Shown piece after piece: positions 1,406 to 36,100 of a stretch of 64,000 nucleotides of DNA (position 1 is its first letter; each line of letters starts with the position of its first letter). Origin of the DNA: Phlebiopsis flavidoalba (Eukaryota > Basidiomycota > Agaricomycetes > Polyporales > Phanerochaetaceae); contig JAOCPU010000066.1 in NCBI GenBank assembly GCA_035772785.1, forward strand, positions 62,001-126,000, written 5' to 3'. The translations under genes were made by a program, and so were the position numbers. The notes beneath the pieces are model-generated. The model was given only the letters and a program-made list of their open reading frames with translations. It was not told the DNA's origin and did no database searches.

Positions 1406-4350
1406 CTACTTGCGACGGGGCCTCTTAGTCGGGCGCGTGTCTACTTGGTCCTCGATTGAATCGTTCTCGGTAACCTTCGTGGCCTTCTTGCCATGTCTCG
1501 GGCGCATACCAGTGGCCTTGACGGAGGAACTTGATTTCACAGAGCCAACACCGGACGATTTCTCGGTCAGAACGTCCTCGTGAAGCTTCTTAGCGTTCCT
1601 GGGATACTTTGCACGCATTCCGGGTGTCTTGGTGTAGATGATATCGGGTTTTTGCAGAGCCCAAAATAAACGAAGTCTCGGTCGGATTGTTCTCTGTAAC
1701 TTTCGTAGCCTCCTGTCCATACTTCGGCCTCAGTCTCGGTCGGCTTGTTCTTTACGACCTCCGTAGCCTCCTTGCCATGTTTCATACGCATACCGGGAGT
1801 CTTGGTAGAAGAATTCGATTTCGTAGAGCCCATAACGGATGATGTCTCGATCGAATCGTTCCCTGTCGTCTCTGTAGTGTCTTTGCCATGCTTCATACTC
1901 ATATCCGGAATCGTCTTGGAAGAAGCGTTTGAGTTTGTGGAGTGCAGGCTGGATGAAGTCTCGGCCGGAGATTGAGAGTTTCTGTCAACCGCGGTAGTGA
2001 ACAAGGAAATATTCGTAGATGGAGCGAGCTGGGCCGCTGCTGTCCTCTCCAGAGAAACCAAGGTTGTTTGGGGTCTTCCGGTTGACTTGTCGATATGTTT
2101 GGTATCATACTGTTCACACGGCTAAAGCGTCCATCTTTCCACGCTGGCGGACGGTGGAGATCGGGGGAACATATCATTCACGATATCATTCTCGACCCAC
2201 TCCTCCCGTATCAAGGAAACGCTGCAGGGTCTCAAGCCACCATTTCGGATTGGAAAGTTGACGTCTTCTTGTTTTCATACTTCTTGAGTTCGGATTTGCC
2301 CAGATGTTGAAGCTCTCTGTACCGATAATATGATCATCTAAAAGCAACAAGAAGGTGGTCCAAGAGGTCTCGATATCCGCCTGAAACAAAGGGGAATCTC
2401 TCGGAGCTCGCTTTCGTCCTTCAGTAGCTGATCCTTGCCCACAGATCTGCCTGTTCCATTCGTCGGTATCCCCATGATTCGCGCAAAATGGATTGGTTTC
2501 GAGGAGAATGGTCCCGGTTAGAGTGGGAAACGTGATGGATGCCGAAACAGGCGAGAGCCCAAAGAATCGATTCCAGGTCGTGGTCGATGAGCTCGTGAGG
2601 TTTCTTAGGTTGTTCTCTATGAGAGAAATTGACGTGCATTGCGGAGTGAGCTGCATTCAGAGAAAGCCACCTGTGAGAACGAAAGATGAAAACAGCAAAA
2701 TCCAAGTTATACTGACGCCGTGAAAAGGAGACTGAGCACTTGCAAAAGCTTTGTAATCTGTACGGGAGTGGTCCCAGCCCGTCAAGACGCCTTTGCATGT
2801 TGGGTTCTACACCGTTGAGAAGACGAACATGATGCTCTGCCCCCTCACATTAATGTTGCGGTGAAGAAGCCCAGCCGAGCCTAGATATGCATCTTTGATT
2901 GCTGTAGAAGAAATGAGTTCTCGAACACTCCATGTATTACTTGCCATGTGCCAAAACTCACACCCTCAATAACGTCACGCACCACAAATGGACACAGGTC
3001 CTGCCGAGAGAGCTAACCAGGCAGGTCATAGGGGTATCCCACGTCTTCGGGGGGCTGTCATCTGCAGTGACGGAAACATGCCAAATATATAGCGTTGCAT
3101 GGTGCCCGCCAGGGGAACGGTTTTGTTGCAAATTCATGAACTGTGGTCCTTTGTGCAGCGCCGAAGACCATGACGTCGCCGCGACAAGTCGGCTCGAGAA
3201 TATTTGAAACTCCAATATTGCTTAAGGAGCGAGCATGCCATCCATCTCTTGCAAGACGATTGCATTCTCGACCCTCCAGGTATCCTTCAGCATCTTGAGT
3301 TGACCATGCTTGAGATCGTATGCAATGAACCATCGGTTCCACGACCGATTGGACCCGATATCCACGTCGAATGCACAGCCTAGAAGAAAGTGGTACGTCT
3401 GGCAGGTGTACTTGTCCTTGACTTCGACTTTGTGTACGGGGAAATCCGAGTCTAAGGCAGCGGTCGCCCAAGCAAGATTATCGCCTTTTCTGATCCTGCT
3501 ATCAGAGACAAGCGCTTTGATGGCATTGTAGAGCAGCCCCTTCTGCTCAGCATCACGGACCAGAGAAACGGAGTCGTCCCAGCCCTGAAGCTTCGGCGAC
3601 ATGTGATAGAAAGCCCACAGAAATTCCGCCAGATATTCGGTCGTCACATAGTCGAAGGCCTCAGAGACAAGTGCACCAGAGTGGTCCCAGCGAATGATAC
3701 GCGCGATGTTGCCACAGATCAAAAACTTGCCAGACAAAGCAACGATGTTGATGCGTAAACTGGCCATCGGCGTATTTAGCCAGCTGGCCGCGAACCTTCC
3801 GTGCTGGGGTCCGCGATGCGTTCGAAAGGTCTCGACGGATGCTTGAAGTTGTCCCTGAAGGGGTCCGCGTCTGCCTTGAGCTTGAATTCGATAGCAAGAG
3901 ATGTTGTGGTGAAGTCGAAAGCTTCGATGAGGACCAGTTCGCGGTTTTCCCATTGTCTAGAAGGAGCGTCGTCTCCAAGAATGTGAATGCCGATGTCTGG
4001 TCGCAAGTGACAGGTGGGGGAGGAGCAGGTCGGCACTGACAAAGATCTCGACATTTTCACGCAGTAAACCGTCCCTAAGAGCAGCAATAACCTGTGAGAA
4101 GAAGCGTTAGGGGATGCAGCAGTGGCAGGCCAACGTATAGTGCTTACAAAAGGCTCGTACATATCGATTTCAGCCGTTGCCTTGAGTACGGACGACCAGT
4201 CAACCTATAGGAGCAGGATTCTCGGCCAGAGATCCATCCATGTATTGCAGTCGAAACTCTTGGATAGTCATTGCGCCAACATGATATCCGCGGACTTGGT
4301 TGCTGTATGCAAGGTTTTGTTTCCGTGCTATTGGCCACTGTCCTGCGCGC
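1406..4350 (-). CDS. FunK1-type protein kinase
   Basis: Minus-strand segments follow FunK1 order. An N-terminal VGAMTIQEF (about 4290) is followed by MYEPFVSTI (4162), an intron, and ADADPFRDNF (about 3870). Next come QLAKYADGQF/QHRCF (about 3770), ARIIRWDHSGALVSEAFDYV (about 3700) and EYLAEFLW. The catalytic loop reads LLHRNINV (about 2870-2845), and the late segment reads HELIDHDLESILWALACF (about 2620-2565). The C-terminus is a Lys-rich repeat tail ending TKRPRRK and a stop at 1406. The usual HRD catalytic loop reads HRN here (codon at 2857-2855). At least one frame change falls near 3750 (between QHRCF and IARIIRW) and more lie between 3200 and 2500, so no single open frame covers the kinase. 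The start is uncertain; the first methionine may lie up to 4520. A second FunK1-like N-terminus lies immediately downstream, suggesting a tandem pair. Family identity is fairly sure; activity is doubtful. Confidence 0.8.
1440..1920 (-). repeat. Four Lys-rich tandem repeats in the FunK1 C-terminal tail
   Basis: Four diverged units of roughly 30-37 codons occur in the kinase tail. Their cores are KTIPDMSMKHGKDTTE (from about 1917), KTPGMRMKHGKEATEV (from about 1806), KTPGMRAKYPRNAKKL (from about 1630) and KATGMRPRHGKKATKV (from about 1519). Linkers are Ser/Thr-rich (GSTKSNSSTK, GSVKSSSSVK). Units two and three are in different frames, with a frame change between about 1730 and 1640. The basic, disordered composition would fit a nuclear-targeting or docking tail, but that is inference. 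Confidence 0.75.
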
Positions 4351-6099
4351 GGCGACGTTTGACACCATGTATGAGTGCTATAGGCTGCGGAGGGGTAGTT
4401 TGCAGCCATAGAGGAGCAAGATGGTAGAGAGTGAGAGTGATAACAAGCAAGGTGGCCAAAGCACCCGACAAGGTCGAGATCAAGAGCCGCCGAGCGCGTG
4501 GCCGTGCATTTTGGTCTCAACGCTTTGAACTAGTGTCCTAATAAGTCAAGCCCATCAGCGAGCTCCTAAAGCACGCTCCATGTTAAGCGGTGAGAGGATC
4601 ACTGTCTATGTCTTGAGTTCCTCAGCAATTACCTATTCGAACTACTACTGGACAGCCTTGTCCGACGTTTGCTGCCGGCTCGGGTGGATCGGACCAATGT
4701 CGTACGCAACTGTGTATATATCTTGCTTAGTAATCGTAAGCGTAAGCCAGAAGTTATATAGTCAGATTATGTGGATAACTTACTAGGCTACATCAGACTG
4801 ACAGGTGTCCCTCCCGACTTCCACTTGGACGGCTTCAAATTGGACAATGGGTGAGTAAATTAGACAGAAATCTGCTTGCAAACGTTGCCTTATCAAATCT
4901 TGAGTCTTTCCTCCCGGGAATAATGACTTGAAAATGGTACAAGAGCTTTTAGCAAGCATGGATTTCTGGATAGCATGTAGGGAATAGTCCCTAAGTCGCC
5001 GTGTTAGACTCAATGTAGGCGCGTTTTGTTAGAGAAGGGACGCACTACTACAAGGATTGAGCACAATCCACAACAATTAGCGGGAGGAGCATATGCTTCT
5101 CCACATACTAAACGAGTCCTGACGGGTCAGATAGCGAGAAAAGATTGTCTTCACGCCTCAACGCATTTGCTTATAAATGTCTGGGCAGGTCCCCAGAAGG
5201 CGCATGCATGCAGACACAAGTCGAATAGCCATACTGACACACCGTACTTTGTAGTTATCCACGGGGGATGCTGTAGACTCTATAGCCTTTGGAGTCGTTT
5301 TCCTCCGAGCCGGTCGGGAGGACCGGAATGGGGCTGACGAAGCGCCGGTATGGCACATATACACTTTCGACCGCTTCTCACGCCACGTCTCTGGAATTGA
5401 CAACGCGTCAGGACTGCATGTTATACCCCGTCTTCCACTCCACTTACCGCTCGTGAAGAGATCGTGACAAGACGGGAACACGTATAACGGGACGGGGAGA
5501 GAAGGGGTGCGAGACCCCATGAGCACTACCGCGTCATCGAATGCGATTGAGCGAAAAAGAATTCAAGCCTCTGCACAGTACTTGAAGTAGAATGCTTTCT
5601 AAAAAGTGAAATTGCTGAGAAACTGACATGAGCGAGGCTGCTGAGTGGGAGGATGCTGCGGGATGCACAGAGGCAAGCAAGACCTCTTGTGAATTTAAGA
5701 GGACACAAGACGGCTGAAACATGTGTTGACGAGCATTTCCCTTGACAGGCGACAGAAGATGGCTGCCTATAAGCTGCAGACGAGTGCGCGAGTCAACGCG
5801 CGTCGCAACATTCGTGACACTTTCCCGAGTGCTTACTTATTACGTCAGTGCTGTGTTATTGATAGAAGTAATCTGAGCTTGAATGCTTTACTTATCTCAT
5901 TCAATCTCCGCATCGGCGCGCAAAATAATCGTCCTACGTCGAAACTTCGTCCAAATATCAATGCGGCGTCTTCTCCTTGACCAACGTAGAAAGTGTACAT
6001 CCGGCCCGCTCGCATTCACACGCATGGAAAGTCTTGACAATAGAACCCAATCTAGAGGGATCCCCCTTTAGTTTCTTACCAACAGGTCTCTGCTCTGAA
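4351..6099. other. No recognisable gene
   Basis: Apart from the possible extreme 5' end of the FunK1 kinase (to about 4520), the short open frames on both strands show no family motif, no convincing start context and no spliceable structure that I could follow. The stretch probably holds the divergent upstream regions of the FunK1 gene (minus) and the DUF7330 gene (plus). Confidence 0.5.
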
Positions 6100-27035: not shown

Positions 27036-28490
27036 GTGCGTTATCTCTATCCAAGTCTGGTCCGATTGGCACGGTCCTGGTGAGCATATTTCTTTAGAAT
27101 TCATTGAAGCGAGCAGTCTGCTTACCGAGCGATTGCAGGACTAGATCCTAATCTATACCTATTTCACTAGGCATATATGTGTATTATTTTAATATTTGTT
27201 GTGTGTCGATGTTGTACTGTTCGTCGCTCATACCCGCCACTTTTCTTCTGGGTTATGTTTCATTGTCTGTCATGATCTATCGCGTACCTTTCAGCACCCT
27301 CTGTCACCACTCGTGTCCTACATTTGGCCCACCTGCGCATACATGTATTCATAATACTGCAACACGTACCTGTACTATCAGTAACATCATTCCTGTACAT
27401 ACTTTTACCTGTCCCTCAATAACTTGACGGATTATTAGCGACTTGGATTAGTAACGGTGGGCGGCATCCCGGCGACTTTCCTTACATCCAATGTATGGCC
27501 CACGATCTGCGATCATGTTGGGAGAGGTCATGAGAGTAGCACGACATCGTATGTACCCGTGAAACATCGGACGGATCACACAACACATTTTTCGATGGTC
27601 GGGTGTGCATCCAGTAGCAGGAATCTATGACACCAAACTGGGGTCTAGGATGAGTCTTTCTAAGCAACCTGTGGAGTCGAAGCGACCTCAATGCTACCTA
27701 GAAGAGGCCGAAAGCCGTAGTGAGACTGTGCTCGTCCTATTCCCAGTACGGAGACAACTAGCATGACGTACGATTGACGGTCGGACTTCTTAGGGAGACT
27801 GCATAGACCAAGCTGCGGCCGCCCTAGTTATTCACAGTCGTGTACGAGAGCATCCCGTTGGTGAATGGCAGCAAGTTATTGGCCTGGCATAACACAATCA
27901 TGTGAAAACAAGTGAATATGCACAAGGGAGGTTACGTGCGTTATTTCTACATACGCGCAATATTCAATTGAGGAAGCGACCTGGAGTCTGGACGCAGACA
28001 CGTCAATATCACTATTCGTCGCAAGGGCGGTCACGGATCAAAGGATTTGGTGTAGATTTTCCGTGGTCTTTTACCATGTCCGGATTGAAAAGGAAGACGT
28101 TGCAACTTGGGGCACGCCACCGATGTGGTGAGTGTAGCATGAAGCCGTGAGGGATGGAAATCCCCAAAATTCGGTTCCTAATCAAACCTGGAAGTCCGCT
28201 CGCTAAGCATCAGAGAAGACAATCTTTATGTAAAATGACAGGCTAATGGCGATTTGAAGATGGTAGGGAGGAAGACCTGTTGGCTACAGGCGGCTGAGGA
28301 GGTATCGTGAAGCAGACGAGCTGCGCAGCAGATTCCGCGTGTAGAGCTGTCGTGTGTGTTCGGCATGCTGACGCGACGCCTCTGGCCGTCGGAGCCGTGG
28401 ACCACCCTATACAAATGAGTCGATCTGTCTCGCTCAGCAGACCCTTCGGCTCTCTATGCGGAGCCGCAGACATACTGAGATACGCGCCTT
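27036..28490. other. Start of gene-poor island, no recognisable gene
   Basis: The DNA becomes A/T-richer after 27,100. Short frames (up to 82 codons, such as one at 27902-28150) have no motif. The right part leads into the dispersed repeat starting near 28,491. Confidence 0.5.
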
Positions 28491-29353
28491 TATGGAGGCC
28501 ATTTGGTTACGGTTCAAAGTTGTGACTCGATTGTCACGAAGATGTTTCTGTTGGAAGTAAAACGTCATGTCACTAATAATATAGAGACCCCTGGTAGTGC
28601 TACATAAGTACTTACCTTCGTGAACACGCGATTCGCGTCGTTCTGCGAAAGCTCAACGCGTGTCTAGGCTCGGAATTCCCCAGCCGCTTTCAAACTCCGC
28701 TGTGCCGAGGCTGGCTCCGTAGGAGCGGCTGGGCGGGCTGGACAGGTTCTTGTCGACCCCCTCGTAAGCGCTTATTTCTCACCATGAGAGAGCCGTGCCA
28801 TGGGTCGCAAGAGCACCCGCTAAGTATACGGGGCTTCTCATTGTTTATTACTTTAAACACATTGTGCAAGTCTTTTGTGTGGTCGATCTCAGGCTCTAGC
28901 GCATGAGAATGTGGTTAACTTGGGCTCTTTTGCCGTATGAAAGTTGCCTGACAGCTGCACCTATGCTGTGATTATAGCAGCGCTATGAGAGACCAGAAGC
29001 CCGAAATTCTGTGATACCATATATCTAGGCATTACTTTGAGTAACTTTCTTATTAACAGCGAACAGTTTCGATGACTTTTTTTCAGAAACCTCGGGGGTC
29101 GACAAGAATGTGTCCAGTCCACCCAGCCGTCACGGTAAGTGCTCCGTTTCGACGAGCGCCCCAAACTCCGCTGATAAGATCAAATCTCACATAAGCTTCC
29201 ATATACAGAAGGTAGTTCTCATCCCTTTCTCGAAGTCCCGCGCAGCGAGGAGAAACGACACTTACCGTGACGGCTGGTCTACGAGCCTAACGCGTGTCGT
29301 CCGTGTCGCAGCACGTCCCAAAATGGTGGTTCATCAATTTCGAGGCGCTTCCT
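28491..29353 (+). repeat. Dispersed repeat, left copy, split by an insertion
   Basis: This copy matches the reverse complement of 32,913-33,127. Exact blocks are 28491-28516 (26 nt, with 33102-33127), 28541-28559 (19 nt, with 33059-33077), 28639-28663 (25 nt, with 32962-32986) and 29312-29329 (18 nt, with 32939-32956). The first three and the last are contiguous in the right copy but separated by 625 bp here, because a mobile element sits at 28665-29289. Both copies share a possible reading frame (YGGHLVTVQ...MFLLEV...RHVTN), interrupted by a stop in the right copy, so the repeat may derive from a coding element. I could not name its family. Confidence 0.8.
28665..29289. mobile_element. Non-autonomous DNA transposon (MITE), Mutator-like signature
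   Basis: A 625-bp insertion begins TAGGCTCG (28665-28672) and ends CGAGCCTA (29282-29289). The inverted ends extend imperfectly to about 20 bp, including CCAGCCG on both sides. It is flanked by the 9-bp direct repeat ACGCGTGTC at 28656-28664 and 29290-29298. The other copy of the host repeat (reverse complement of 32913-33127) carries one ACGCGTGTC only, so it acts as a related empty site and proves the insertion. There is no transposase frame. A 9-bp target-site duplication is typical of Mutator-like elements; Merlin-type elements (8-9 bp) are the alternative. Inside is a second 19-bp perfect inverted repeat (29123-29141 with 29259-29277). Movement would depend on a transposase encoded elsewhere. 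Confidence 0.8.
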
Positions 29354-29547
29354 CATGTTCGTGCAGCGTGCACCACGAAAATGGAGTTGCATCTCTAAGC
29401 AGGTGGAGAATGCATTACATGATTACATCCCAACCCAGTAGTTATAAATATTGTAATACATTCATGCCCAGAAAGTCAATCATATTTTACCTTTTCTCCG
29501 CATTTCTTTTTGTCATTTTCACATATAAATTGGTGTATTTATTAGCT

Positions 29548-30097
29548 TTACTACTCTACATATATAGATTATAACCACTCTGCATTTATAAAATACGTGG
29601 GTATATTTGGAGCGGCGTGGCGGCGGGGACAGCGACGGCGGGTGGTGGTTGCAGTTGGGATGTGGGACAGTATGCGTCGGCGCGACAAGCCGGCACGCGA
29701 ATACCGGGGCCAGGGTGGCCAGCGGGCATGCGGTTATCATAAGTAGCGGCCGAGCACGCACACAGCGGCCGTAGGGCACCAGTGGACCTTGACTGGCAGA
29801 ATATCTATCAGCTCTACTACTATACATGTATATTAAATCACTCCGTGTGTATATAATACGGAGGTAGAATTGGAGTGGGGACGGCGGCTGCAGCAACAGC
29901 GACGGGGCGGCGGTTGCAGTCGGGATGTGGGGCTCGGGTTGAATGACAGCGGGGTGTAGACATTGGATAGGGGTCTCCTGCACGCCGGCATGCAGAATAC
30001 CGGGGGCAGGGTGGCCAGCGGGGCGTGCGGTCGTTCGTGGGATGCGGCCGAGCGCACACGCAAGCGGCCGTCGGGTACCAGTGGGCCATGCTGGCGG
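29548..30097 (+). repeat. Two diverged tandem units of about 270 bp
   Basis: Unit one (about 29548-29796) and unit two (about 29812-30097) share the same order. Each has an A/T-rich head (ctctac...atac...aata), a GGCGGC-rich middle ending GGTTGCAGT(T/C)GGGATGTGGG, then ACCGGGG(C/G)CAGGGTGGCCAGC, and GCGGCCG(A/T) with CAGTGG(A/G)CC at the end. Unit two has about 40 bp extra. The sharp A/T to G/C switch inside each unit is unusual. Open frames across it are repeat-driven and probably not genes. Confidence 0.7.
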
Positions 30098-30114
30098 GCA
30101 TTCGGTGCACACCA

Positions 30115-30205
30115 CTTATACACATGCATCCATCGAACAATGCAGGGGGGCAGACGGCTTATACACATGCAATCATCGAACAATGCAGTGTGGGGGGGCA
30201 GACGG
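30115..30205 (+). repeat. Short tandem duplication (43 and 48 bp units)
   Basis: Two adjacent units begin CTTATACACATGCA (30115 and 30158), share ATCGAACAATGCAG, and end in a G-run plus CAGACGG (30157 and 30205). The second has an extra TGTG before the G-run. This looks like a minisatellite-type duplication next to the larger tandem units. Confidence 0.8.
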
Positions 30206-30568
30206 AGACGAAGGTCGCGGACAAGGTGGGGATCCGGCACACTGCGGAGAAGTGCGCAAAGCTTCATGGCGCAGCGTCCGAGTCCGCTACAGGTCGTACG
30301 TCGTTCCTGAGGCAGAACCGAGGCGATGGGAGGCGGGTGAGAGGCGAGTTGATTGCGAGCTGGGGGTGTACCGCGGCATACATGAGCGCATGCGTACATA
30401 CCTGTACGCTCTACACGGGGGAATTCGAACGTATCGCGTCGCTTCTGACGCAGTACGGCGGCGGCGGTAGACAGAAGGGGGGACGGGTGGGTCGGCGACG
30501 ATATACTGCGCTGTAGACACCGTAGTGGTTAGTACAGCAGATAGAATCGTCATGACGTACTTTTGGGA

Positions 30569-31046
30569 CGTGAAGGGCGATTTGAATCTCCCTTCACGTC
30601 ATCTGGCGGTCTGGGTTGTATGGTTCGCGGTGTAGCCAAACACGGCTGGCCACACACCTTCAACCCATGGGCCCGCAAGCGTACTCCACCCAGCTAGAGC
30701 ATTGGAGTACGCCCATGGAGCACTGCTTCAACGTTCCTCGACGCTTTTGAGGCGTCGGCGTTCGTCGTTCGTGTCGCCGGTGTCGAGGTCGCCGAGTGCG
30801 GAGTTGGGCAGCGGGAATTGACGACCGGGCGATCCCGAGCGAGGTGAAATGAAAGGAGGGACACCAGGGCCCTCCGATAAAGAGCCCTGGCATCGAGAGA
30901 GGAAATTGAGACCGCCGTTTGCGAGAACGGCGGTCGTGGGTGGTGGTTTGGGACAACCAGATGTGGGCGCTTTATTCCCTCGGGCGACTTCTGGGTCGCC
31001 TCGGGCAGCCTCGGGCGACCTCAAAGTGCGCTGTGTCGTCCGCACT
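30569..31046. repeat. Cluster of seven perfect hairpins
   Basis: Perfect inverted repeats with short loops occur at 30569-30579/30592-30602 (11 bp, loop 12), 30679-30688/30703-30712 (10 bp, loop 14) and 30739-30744/30752-30757 (6 bp, loop 7). Others are 30864-30870/30884-30890 (7 bp, loop 13), 30910-30919/30926-30935 (10 bp, loop 6), 30983-30988/30995-31000 (6 bp, loop 6) and 31025-31030/31041-31046 (6 bp, loop 10). CTCGGGC recurs three times at 30980-31018. Nothing in the coding annotation explains this. It could be a structured RNA, a foldback element, or a remnant of hairpin-bearing mobile DNA. Confidence 0.7.
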
Positions 31047-32912
31047 ATCCATCGCTCGCCTCGCATCCTCTTGCTTCGGGATGGATTGAGGAGAGCTTTG
31101 TTGACGGATCCATAGGTAAGGGTTTCCCACGGGATTACGGAAAACTAATATATTCACCTTATTCCTAGGCACTCTAAGATCCTTCCCTCGTTTCAAGTAC
31201 GGATCGACTTCCCCACTCGACCTACTCTCACGTCAACGGATATCGGAGGCGCCGTACTACTGTTTTCGATGTACGTGAAAGAGTCTACGGCGTTCATTTT
31301 CATTCGGACCGTTCAAAAAATAGATACACGGCAACCATTCCGAAGCCTCGCGGAAGACCACTCCCCTACTTTTATGAGAAGCATGACGTACCACTGTTCG
31401 TCATCGTCCACAATATAGGATCACGCCATGAATCACGCTGCGACTAGGTAATTTTTTACACCTCAACTTACATATCAGCATACTATAGAGTCACACCCAC
31501 GAAGGTGTTGTAATCGTTAGTGATGTGGTTAAGCCTGTTAAGACACCTCCCCAGAGAGAACCAGACACCGTATTAGATGCTCCGCATACAGCGTCTGAGT
31601 AGTCTCTCTATACCGCTTAACTGCTGCTTGCTCTCCTCCCGCATTTTCGGAAGGCTGCGCACCAAAAAGCTCTCTACACAAGTACAAGAAGACATGTGCT
31701 TCGCCTTTTGGTTGACGCCTATATGTGCTGTGCTGTCTCCCTATGACTGGGCTTTCATTCTCCTCGACGTTCTGACAAAGGGCGCCTATATTATTAAACG
31801 TCGTTTTTTATTCCTGAACGCTTTCAACACGTGTAAAGCTCGGCTACAAATGTGCTATTATACTATTTGATACTAGTACGGTATAAGAATGTTATTTATA
31901 TTAAGTCTCCATATATATATTGTCGAGTGTTCCTGTAATCCTCGAGAGTCACCGTTTTTTTACTCTTTCTCTCAGGCCGTGCTTCATATCCCTTGTAAGT
32001 TGGATTTTATACTACAGGATACTACTACATGTTAGCTGCATATGTTTATATGCTCTATGTGATCCGTTTTCTATTATACAAATCCGCTCTTTCTTTCTAC
32101 TATTTGCCTAGACACGTGTATGACATTTGCATCACTATCACTGATGTTGTTGAGTGTGCGAGTTTTGTTGCTCTATGTAGCCATCCTTTTCTATGTGCTC
32201 TGTATTATTATACTGATCATGTATTTAGACATCGCAATGGACCTCATTCATAATCGCCACTCTAAGTGTGTCATTTTTTACTATCCCTGTTGCAACCATG
32301 CAACTATATTTATGAATATCACTTTTGTTTGACTTTTGTCTATTTTTTGAGTGAACCTAAGATACCTAGCTGAATCATGTGCAGACTGATGTGGATAAGA
32401 GCTCAGCTACATACACTTGGGGAAATAAGGATGTGTTCAGGTCATAGGAGTACAATGGCGCGGTCGCACCGTATAGAATAAAGAATATATACATGATTTC
32501 GTCCAGGAATCTCCATTCGTAATGATCATGGTATGACATCCAAATACAACTAGGGGTACAGCCCTCATACCACTCCAAATATATGATTACAATTGAGGAA
32601 TCTGTTAGCTATACCAACCATCGGGCATAATAAGGGAACGCCAAAATAGAACAATGATCCATGCAAAGGTTGCACTGGGGCGGGGACCGTGCCCAAGCCT
32701 TATGCACGGTGCGGGCGCACAAACAAGGGCAATAAAGCGCGCATGTGAGCGCGCGGCAGCGGGGACACATAGGTTAAATAGAATGGGGGAGCAATAGGGT
32801 CTGTAGATTGGACACTGGGAGTACTCGATCTAATTTAGAACACTAGGATAGTAATAACATCTATAATACTCAAGCCAGATGGCTTACAGACCGACATTGG
32901 GAGACATGACCC
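31047..32912. other. A/T-rich non-coding interval
   Basis: No gene recognised. 31,500-32,600 is strongly A/T-rich, and its plus-strand frames are hydrophobic only because of T-rich codons. Two more hairpins lie at the right: ACCGTGC 32686-32692 with GCACGGT 32704-32710, and GCGCGC 32737-32742 with GCGCGC 32749-32754. No poly(A) tail, long terminal repeat or reverse-transcriptase motif was seen. Confidence 0.5.
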
Positions 32913-33127
32913 CGTAGAAGCGCCGAAGTTTGATGAACCCACCATTTTGGGACGTGATGCGACACGCGTTGAGCTTTCGCAGAACGGTGACGAGCATCGT
33001 GCATTCACGAAGGTACGTAGCACTACCAGGGGTCCTTTGTATTAGTGACATGACGTTCTACTTCCAACAGAAACATCCTCGTGACAATCTAGTCACAAAT
33101 CTGAACCGTAACCAAATGGCCTCCATA
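32913..33127 (-). repeat. Dispersed repeat, right copy (uninterrupted)
   Basis: In reverse complement this equals the left copy at 28491-28663 plus 29290-29353 without the inserted element. It has a single ACGCGTGTC at 32961-32969, the pre-insertion target. Its orientation is opposite to the left copy, so the two form a 4.3-kb-spaced inverted pair. The divergence is moderate, so neither copy is very recent. Confidence 0.8.
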
Positions 33128-36100
33128 CGCCTTGGCAATCTCGCATGGCCGCAGACCGACAGACATCCCTAGTATAGAGCTATGAAAAAGCGGTCTCGCA
33201 GGGAAGATGATTGTTTTAATACCGTGTGTTATACCATCAAAATAAAATAGGTTTGAGAAAATCGAACTTTTCGTCGTGCTATCTGGGGTCGGTGCATGAC
33301 ATAGCTACATTATAGAGCGTGCGGGCTCGCATACGGCCGTCCATTTTACCTTTCTATTTCTAGGATGGTCTCTCGGTTCCAATGGTGACTCAGCGAACAA
33401 TCGCATAATGATGGTTTGTTGCGCCAGCTGTCTCTCGAGGATGTCATGAGGCTGACATTATACAGTAGCAAGAGAAAAGCAAAAGGTGGGCTTGCTCTGT
33501 CTACATGACGCTTTACTTCAGTATAAGCTGGGCTATCTTTTCAACAGAAACAAAAACGCACCTCTGCGAAACTTTGACTCGTAGCAGCCCTGCGGGCTGT
33601 TGACAGGCGCGCCTGGCGGGACTAGACGCGCGACGGAACAACTTGCCACATGGCGGCCCCGAGCCGAGCCCCAGAAGGTCTGTCCACTTTAGGCAATTCA
33701 CTGAGTACGAGATGACTCGAACAAATCTATAAACGAACCGCGCTCGCCATGTGTTCCCCCCTTTTCCCCCGCTGGCCCCCCAGCCTGACGCCCCTTCCCC
33801 TTGCTCACGCTCGCTTTCGCGCGTTTCCCTTCTCCTCCCTCTACCCCCGGGTCCCACCACATTTGGTGCTTTCCTTGGGTTTCCACTCCTGCTTCCTCTT
33901 CCTATTCTTTCGAAGGTGTCCAAGTTTCGAACCGTGCGAATTATCTGCCTTTCTCGCGCGGTTCTGCCTTCCGGGGGCATCTTGCTCAGAACAAGCTGTA
34001 CCGTTATAATGACTATGGCAGTGTGACGCACTATTCATAATGCGTGTGAATCTGTGCATACGTCAAGTCCGGCAGCTCAAGTTGCGAAAGTGAGTACCCA
34101 CCCCAAGGTTTCGATCGGACAGGCCTCTCTACACTCCCAGCACGTGAAGAAACGAAAGACGCGTCAAAACGGCAAGATGAGATGAGACACGACCCTCGCG
34201 TTCCTGACGTGCAGAGCCCCGAGCGGCGAGCAGGCCGTCTCGGGATGAGGCTGCGCAACGTCCGGCGACGCCACAGCGAGTGCCGCCGTGGCGCATCATT
34301 TTCGACGGGACATCAGAACCGTGAGTGCTCCTGTCGACTCCGTCCTGCTGAGCGCACTGATCCATCACAGACTCGCCAAGAATCCTATCATCGCGTGACC
34401 GTACCGCCCTGGAGCACCTGCGCTCAAGTCCGACAAATATGCATTGCAGTGTGGAGCGCCTGACCGCGCCGACGCGTCAGCGCGACAGTCCTCTGCCATA
34501 CGGTTACCGCGGCGCAGCAGGCAGGAACATCAATCAGCGTCGCGTATCATCTGGTCGAAACAGCGGAGCAAACAGCCCACAATAACCGTGGTCCAAGGCG
34601 CACCTCGCCAAGGCCACAACGTCCCGACGTTTCGGGGTGCTTCATGGTGCGATGCTTTGTCAGATCCGTTGAGATTTTCTCGTGGGGAATGACTCGTACT
34701 GACTCGTTTAGCAGATGTGACGCTTTGTGTCGGTCCGTACCTGCCTGGTGCAGCCGTCCGCCGGTGAGACCTCTCATCAGTTGATTTGAATTGCGACGGT
34801 CGGCCTCATAGACGACCGTTGCGAATCCTTTCGATGGTCGGGAATTCGCTGGCGTCACCTGTGGCGGAGAGCTCAAGGTTTGCACATCGTCGAGAAGACA
34901 TTCCCATGGGGGCAAGGTCCCGCGGGTTATGCTACACCCCACATCTAGGCCCCTCACAGTCTCGGATCATCTCGCTGGAAACCGGAAAGTCCAACACAAA
35001 CGAATGGTTATCGCGATCTCCACACTCTTGCGGCCGTCCACAGCCGTTCGCAGCCCTCGGGAGACTACTTTTGTATTCTTTGCGCCTGCAGACCTTTGCG
35101 CCTCGTTCCTCGCTGCAACAACACGGCCCGACGCTTTTCTCGTGTGCATTCTTACGGGACGAATCAAGGTTTCGCTCTGCGCCTCCCCTGTCAGCACCCG
35201 CGGCTGTGACCTTGTGTGGGCTCGCAACCTCTTCACAACTCTCGATCAAGCCTGGCGCTACGATCCGGTCATCCAGGCTTTTTCGGCGCTTCTGATCGCG
35301 CGACTGCGAAGCTGTGAATGCGGGGGTCGCGCAACGTCCGCTCAGAATGGCAGCGGTCCGGACTGCGGCCACGCCATGGACGGACGTGTCTGTCTACGCG
35401 TGGGCGCCGTTCTCGCGCCGTCCACAAGCTTCCTCGTCCTTCGCCCGCCCGCAGGCGGCAGGAGGGAATGCTTCAGCTTGGGGCTGCTTGCGAGAACGCT
35501 AGATTGTCGTGGCACCCACGTCCCCAGGCGGAGGTGGCTAGCCGCAATTTTGGGATGAACTCTTCCCAGCTGCGTTTTTCATCGTAGAATCAGAGCCTAG
35601 TCCCTCCTCTCCTCGTCGCTCGCGGATTGGTTGGTTTCCCCTGGGACGTTCCACTCCCGAATGCCGCGCCCGAAAATCCATACCCATATGCCTCCGCATC
35701 CGCGGTAGTTTGGCCTTGGGCGGAGGTGGAGATGGTCTGGTGGGGGGGGTTGGCGAGGTCCGGGAGATAAGTGGCAGCTCGGTCGCGTACCAATGTGCGC
35801 AGTGGTTCTCCCAGCTCACCCTCGAGACCCCGCTGGGTGCTCTTTGCGTCTGTCGCTGTCTGGCCAACTACACTGCTCGCTGATCTCGCCACGGGCACAC
35901 TGGGTTCAATGATGGTTTGGGACAGCGACGGCGGAGCGGGAATGGCGTCGGTGCCTTAACCGTCCTTATCTGCACCGCCACAAGGACCGTTGCTAACAAA
36001 GGCGCCCACCATCAGAGCCAGGCGCTCGGACAGGCGCGCGCTACACACGCAAAGCGGGGAATTTGTCATCAGAAGCGACCCATCTATGGCAGGAGGCCGT

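Follow-up and report, generated by a model that had tools for sequence, protein, structure and literature searches.

Results

The window analysed here is a 64,000-nucleotide stretch of the Phlebiopsis flavidoalba genome (GenBank assembly GCA_035772785.1, contig JAOCPU010000066.1, positions 62,001 to 126,000, forward strand). It contains a 625-bp element at positions 28665-29289 (plus strand), inserted in the left terminal inverted repeat (TIR) of an older transposon. The element is bounded by 8-bp perfect outer TIRs, TAGGCTCG at 28665-28672 (plus strand) and CGAGCCTA at 29282-29289 (minus strand), and is flanked on both sides by a 9-bp target-site duplication, ACGCGTGTC (28656-28664 and 29290-29298, both plus strand). 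Direct reading and flank scoring agree on all four features, and the outer TIRs were also recovered by an end-pattern search. The original prediction, which was made from the window alone, had described a 625-bp TIR element with these ends and 9-bp duplications and had assigned it to the Mutator-like superfamily. The first part is borne out by direct reading; as we describe below, the element is real and correctly bounded, but it was wrongly filed.

Between its outer TIRs, the element has a layered organisation. A 5' subterminal palindrome, visible by direct reading, has its first arm CCCAGCCGCT at 28679-28688 (plus strand) and its partner arm AGCGGCTGGG at 28724-28733, built around CAGCCG/CGGCTG. 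An inner inverted repeat, IR2, follows: its 36-bp left copy (28726-28761, plus strand; element bases 62-97) is 89% complementary to the right copy (29094-29129, minus strand; element bases 430-465). The 3' end carries a subterminal 19-bp perfect inverted repeat, with its first arm at 29123-29141 (plus strand) and its partner at 29259-29277 (element bases 459-477 and 595-613). The region around this repeat (29122-29271) has a predicted fold that is better than that of shuffled sequences (z -3.22), and the predicted fold of the 5' palindrome region (28665-28764) is no better than that of shuffled sequences (z 0.27). The core between the inner repeats (28762-29093, no strand assigned) is the least conserved part of the element: in an alignment of ten copies from the genome, mean pairwise identity was 95.0% for bases 1-110, 86.7% for bases 111-425 and 92.9% for bases 426-625. 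The better conservation of the ends fits the expectation for sites that act in cis.

A search of the genome (36,283,335 bases in 129 contigs; C-numbers denote places in it) with the element gave 39 aligned pieces. Twelve long copies of this family, which we call family A, have both ends, confirming the exact boundaries proposed for a non-autonomous transposon: the window copy, ten further copies of full or near-full length on C12, C11, C1, C57, C7, C73, C37, C87, C34 and, in rearranged form, C23 (75-96% identity), and one copy on C32 that is split by an insertion. Short derivatives exist in addition to these. In the ten-copy alignment, 13 of 622 ungapped positions separate the window copy from its closest relative, on C12, and 53-116 separate it from the other copies. 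At two places no matching right end was found within the approximately 4 kb examined: C14:493541, where the match is limited to the initial 25 bp, and C2:409625, which has 70 bp in common with family A. The split copy (C32:204034-205937, positions 2501-4404 of locus L017) is interrupted by about 1.26 kb of other DNA, and its matched parts overlap by 5 bp, which points to a nested insertion that duplicated 5 bp.

Relatives of family A were reached by searching with patterns of its two ends and, at the DNA level, with a second family, family B, whose members measure 445-489 bp in the copies read. Families A and B are alike over about 100 bp at the left end (76% identity), in the inner repeat and in their last ten bases. 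Family B has exact duplications of 9 bp at C26, C67 and C47, and of 8 bp in a short copy on C29. The ends of a large relative, L031 (C2:86041-94660, 8619 bp), resemble those of family B, with 82% identity over 104 bp at the left end and 85% over 155 bp at the right one. Against family A, the left end is 80% identical over 100 bp and the right end gave no BLAST match. The 9-mers flanking L031 are identical at 7 of 9 positions. L031 holds an inner-repeat pair of its own (79% over 43 bp), and IR2 is related across A, B and L031, though the cores of A and of the C26 copy of family B do not match. The interior of a second large copy with family-B-like ends, L032 (C17:259994-269052, 9.1 kb), is unlike that of L031, and no Pfam domain was detected in the three frames on the strand of the element. 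A separate curiosity of family B is found at C28:346057-347004 (L024, 2501-3448), where two tail-to-tail copies form a 948-bp near-palindrome that has no matching duplication on its outer flanks.

The interior of L031 contains a match to PF20231 (DUF6589) on the minus strand (81.7 bits, with further pieces in other scans) and a RecQ-type helicase on the plus strand; both genes are broken. A 206-residue piece of the helicase matched 95 proteins at E<=0.001, nearly all of them with DEAD and/or Helicase_C domains, the best match being from the Polyporales (Rhodofomes roseus, 4e-38). The original prediction had named as support a full-length relative encoding a Mutator-like element (MULE) transposase; the large element with related ends has DUF6589 and a helicase instead. 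The genome gave no match at all to the MULE profile PF10551, although 3 of 14 control genomes do match it, and the scans of L031 revealed no MULE domain. These scans covered L031 except for one reverse frame of its last 2.5 kb; the whole-frame scan of the three forward frames found nothing, helicase included, and scans of shorter pieces found DUF6589 and one weak DEAD match below the cut-off. Since the whole-frame scan missed domains that shorter pieces show, the L031 scans are not strong evidence of absence.

A MULE transposase cutting 9 bp apart would leave a duplication like the one observed, which is within the MULE range of 8-11 bp, and the TIRs of the element are likewise shared with MULEs. 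Duplications of 4-10 bp are given for the IS256/MuDR group in PMC10045372, and PMC8290104 reports putative non-autonomous elements of MULE and also of Academ type in Marasmius oreades. Weighed against the different proteins of the large relative and the lack of any genomic PF10551 match, these resemblances leave a Mutator-like origin improbable.

An association of DUF6589 with a helicase is not confined to L031. DUF6589 occurs at no fewer than five places in the genome (at least C4, C20, C105, C2 and C64) and the helicase at at least eight; at 4 of the 5 DUF6589 places, a helicase match is 2.2-2.9 kb away. By our own arithmetic, the chance of finding a helicase so near a given locus is about 0.2% (eight helicase places in 36.3 Mb). 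At the fifth place, C4, the helicase matches, about 0.9 kb away, are only weak (E about 1e-4). How the two genes are oriented to one another varies among loci. Pfam labels DUF6589, which occurs in many basidiomycetes, as being of unknown function, and the name is absent from the literature searched. According to a predicted structure, the domain folds like DDE transposases; a sequence-profile search of solved structures returned nothing at E<=10. The best-preserved DUF6589 gene found in the genome, C4:430315-431448 (L035, 3627-5429, minus strand), contains in-frame stops and, over 543 aligned positions, shows 48% identity to a relative. A profile built from 40 DUF6589 proteins (A1) had no significant match to L031 and weak matches to loci L036, L037 and L046; as the Pfam DUF6589 profile does match these copies, they are probably on branches other than that of the C4 gene. 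Ends of the TAGGCTCG type were not found at L035, L036 or L037 in a scan for duplications and inverted repeats, which gave unconvincing candidates only.

The large relative could also have arisen when an unrelated AcademH element landed in a copy of family B, in which case the link between the ends and the DUF6589/helicase pair would be accidental; this possibility overlaps with the Mutator-like origin and with the two others considered below. A single large copy with both genes was seen, and L032, in whose scanned frames no domain could be recognised, may itself be a nested insertion. An insertion into family B would be expected to leave homology running into the B core, whereas in L031 the similarity to B ends, on either side, at the inner repeats (B positions 1-103 and 299-445), and L031 has its own inner-repeat pair. 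We therefore regard an accidental link as unlikely.

The length of the target-site duplication also bears on the choice of transposase. We scored the flanks of 25 copies, comprising family A, its short derivatives, family B and the two large relatives, and dropped one copy because its right end was not recognisable. Duplications were exact at 9 bp in 8 of the remaining 24 and at 8 bp in 2 (C12 and C29); none was exact at 4-7, 10 or 11 bp. Control pairs of mismatched left and right flanks gave 0/552 exact matches at 8 bp and 0/552 at 9 bp. By eye, exact duplications of 9 bp could be read at two further places, tggatttat at C7 and aacaactgc at C32, where the scoring had picked another start; in the other 12 copies, the duplication is degenerate or absent. 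The 8-bp duplication at C12 may equal 9 bp minus one G of a run, and that at C29 looks like a true 8. The part of the proposed genome-wide check that called for many copies sharing their ends but differing in their 9-bp duplications thus gave a positive result (39 pieces, 8/24 with exactly 9 bp).

These two 8-bp duplications, together with TAGG-like ends of the kind that occur in hAT elements and 13 matches to PF05699 (the hAT dimer domain) in the genome, would suit a non-autonomous element of hAT type. The 8 bp predicted by such an origin were exact in 2/24 copies against 8/24 for 9 bp, and no hAT domain was seen in the L031 scans, so a hAT origin is very improbable. Transposases of the Zisupton/Dileera/Kyakuja (KDZ) group are also common in the genome (32 PF18758 matches). 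PMC12730594 gives 8 bp for Zisupton and for a Dileera example, and 7 bp for Kyakuja, which has no TIRs. Exact duplications of 7 bp were found in 0/24 copies and those of 8 bp in 2/24, as opposed to 8/24 at 9 bp, and the L031 scans showed no KDZ domain; a KDZ origin therefore seems extremely improbable.

The DNA into which the window copy inserted proved to be a transposon itself, a point missed by the original prediction, which had proposed a copy of the flanking repeat at 32913-33127 as the empty site. With the flanking repeat as query, a genome search gave eight rows: the query itself, the two halves of the interrupted window copy and five other places. The copies form inverted pairs about 3.7-4.6 kb apart (28491/33127 in the window, C67:143937/148006 and C43:207402/211063), with one unpaired copy on C2. 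In alignment, every copy starts at an identical TATGG, and 6-bp duplications could be read by eye around the three pairs: CGCCTT in the window, TAATTA on C67 and TGTGTG on C43. Because of these inverted pairs, the common TATGG start and the 6-bp duplications, the flanks of the element are the TIRs of another, older transposon, and the element is nested in its left TIR. This host transposon (28491-33127) has TATGG...CCATA ends and TIRs of about 210-230 bp. Repeat search and alignment place its left TIR, with the TATGG end, at 28491-28664 (plus strand), resuming past the element to about 29351, and its right TIR at 32917-33127 (minus strand); direct reading places the CGCCTT duplication at 28485-28490 (plus strand) and 33128-33133.

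The proposed empty site is thus the second TIR of the host transposon, and the insertion is therefore a nested one. This second TIR does have a single ACGCGTGTC, as predicted, but it is not an exact empty site: compared with the joined flanks of the filled copy, it is missing the 9 bp GTCCGTGTC that follow the target immediately. L041 (the copy on C43), L042 and L044 retain the equivalent stretch, as GCCCGTGTC or GTCCGTGTC, L040 has a longer version and L039 has none. The right TIR consequently has a 9-bp deletion beside the target that is shared with L039, and L041 makes the better empty site. The ends, the long TIRs and the 6-bp duplications at all three places (window, C67 and C43) agree with the description of IS3EU in PMC12730594, namely TAYGG..CCRTA ends, TIRs of more than 30 bp and 6-bp duplications, and the host transposon is IS3EU-like by its ends. 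Six-frame scanning of 29352-32915 in the window copy revealed no Pfam domain, and so no transposase domain. The interior of the host also contains an imperfect direct repeat (window 29536-30095; 69% over 300 bp).

Discussion

Our analysis identifies what is best read as a new non-autonomous AcademH-type family, whose window copy is nested in an IS3EU-like transposon. AcademH elements (Kojima, 2020, cited in PMC10045372) have duplications of 9 or 10 bp, compared with 3-4 bp for AcademX, and PMC10045372 relates this difference to the presence of a helicase or a nuclease. A 9-10-bp duplication together with a helicase corresponds to that published description, and we therefore consider the window element to be an AcademH-type DNA transposon, non-autonomous and moved by cut and paste, with a probability of about 80%. 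Among the exact duplications of our copies, 9 bp predominates, with none exact at 10 bp among the 24 scored, and L031 has a helicase, albeit as a broken gene, as well as a putative DDE transposase; the window element carries no helicase. PMC10799480 describes AcademH as low-copy in Basidiomycota among other fungi. Small non-autonomous Academ elements have also been noted in another mushroom-forming fungus, M. oreades, where they were classified by end motif and duplication length (PMC8290104); the likeness is one of description.

Several points limit the certainty of this assignment. It rests on published descriptions of AcademH, and a gene-carrying copy with family-A ends was not found in the genome. 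The sole gene-carrying relative found, L031, is broken and B-like. The element also differs from a typical AcademH transposon in being non-autonomous, in having no full-length partner of its own that we could find, and in the 8 bp seen in two copies.

In the mechanism that we propose, one full-length element would encode both a DDE transposase (DUF6589) and a RecQ-like helicase, and this pair would bind both the 8-bp repeats at the outer ends and the CGGCTGG-type repeats further in. The element would then be excised and joined to staggered cuts 9 bp apart, generating the 9-bp duplication; the window copy would have inserted in this way in the left terminal repeat of the older transposon. We infer that DUF6589 and the helicase move family A in trans, and what the inner repeats do and which residues are catalytic are likewise inferred; the proposed catalytic triad is D81, D206 and E492 of P0023. 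Besides correcting the family to which a small mushroom transposon is assigned, the AcademH-type reading would provide AcademH, which is rarely mentioned in the literature searched, with exact ends, two non-autonomous families and a gene-carrying relative. It would also tie DUF6589 to a DDE-type fold and a partner helicase, as a testable two-protein transposition system.

A further, rather doubtful suggestion is that the ends of these elements are two-tiered, with short outer repeats and, further in, inner inverted repeats, and that the segment between the inner repeats acts as a cassette. Unrelated cores sit between related inner repeats in A, B and L031. The family-B copy on C47 (C47:132701-133147; L029, 802-1248) has its core in inverted orientation between the inner repeats and is flanked by an exact 9-bp duplication. 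This is one of six long family-B units read (two in L024, and one each in L025, L027, L029 and L030), and the remaining long B matches are collinear. The inner-repeat module is missing, from almost the same position, in short copies of A (C2 and C3) and of B (C29); similar breaks occur in three further short B copies (C45, C2:793596 and C5), and the junction at C32a is different. If the cassette idea were true, the inner repeats would constitute a second recombination site that lets the ends swap, flip or drop their cargo, and the transposase/helicase pair would perhaps act on them. Recombination between inverted repeats, ordinary internal deletion or the spread of one short founder can suffice to explain the flipped and short copies, and for this reason we keep the cassette as a minor reading.
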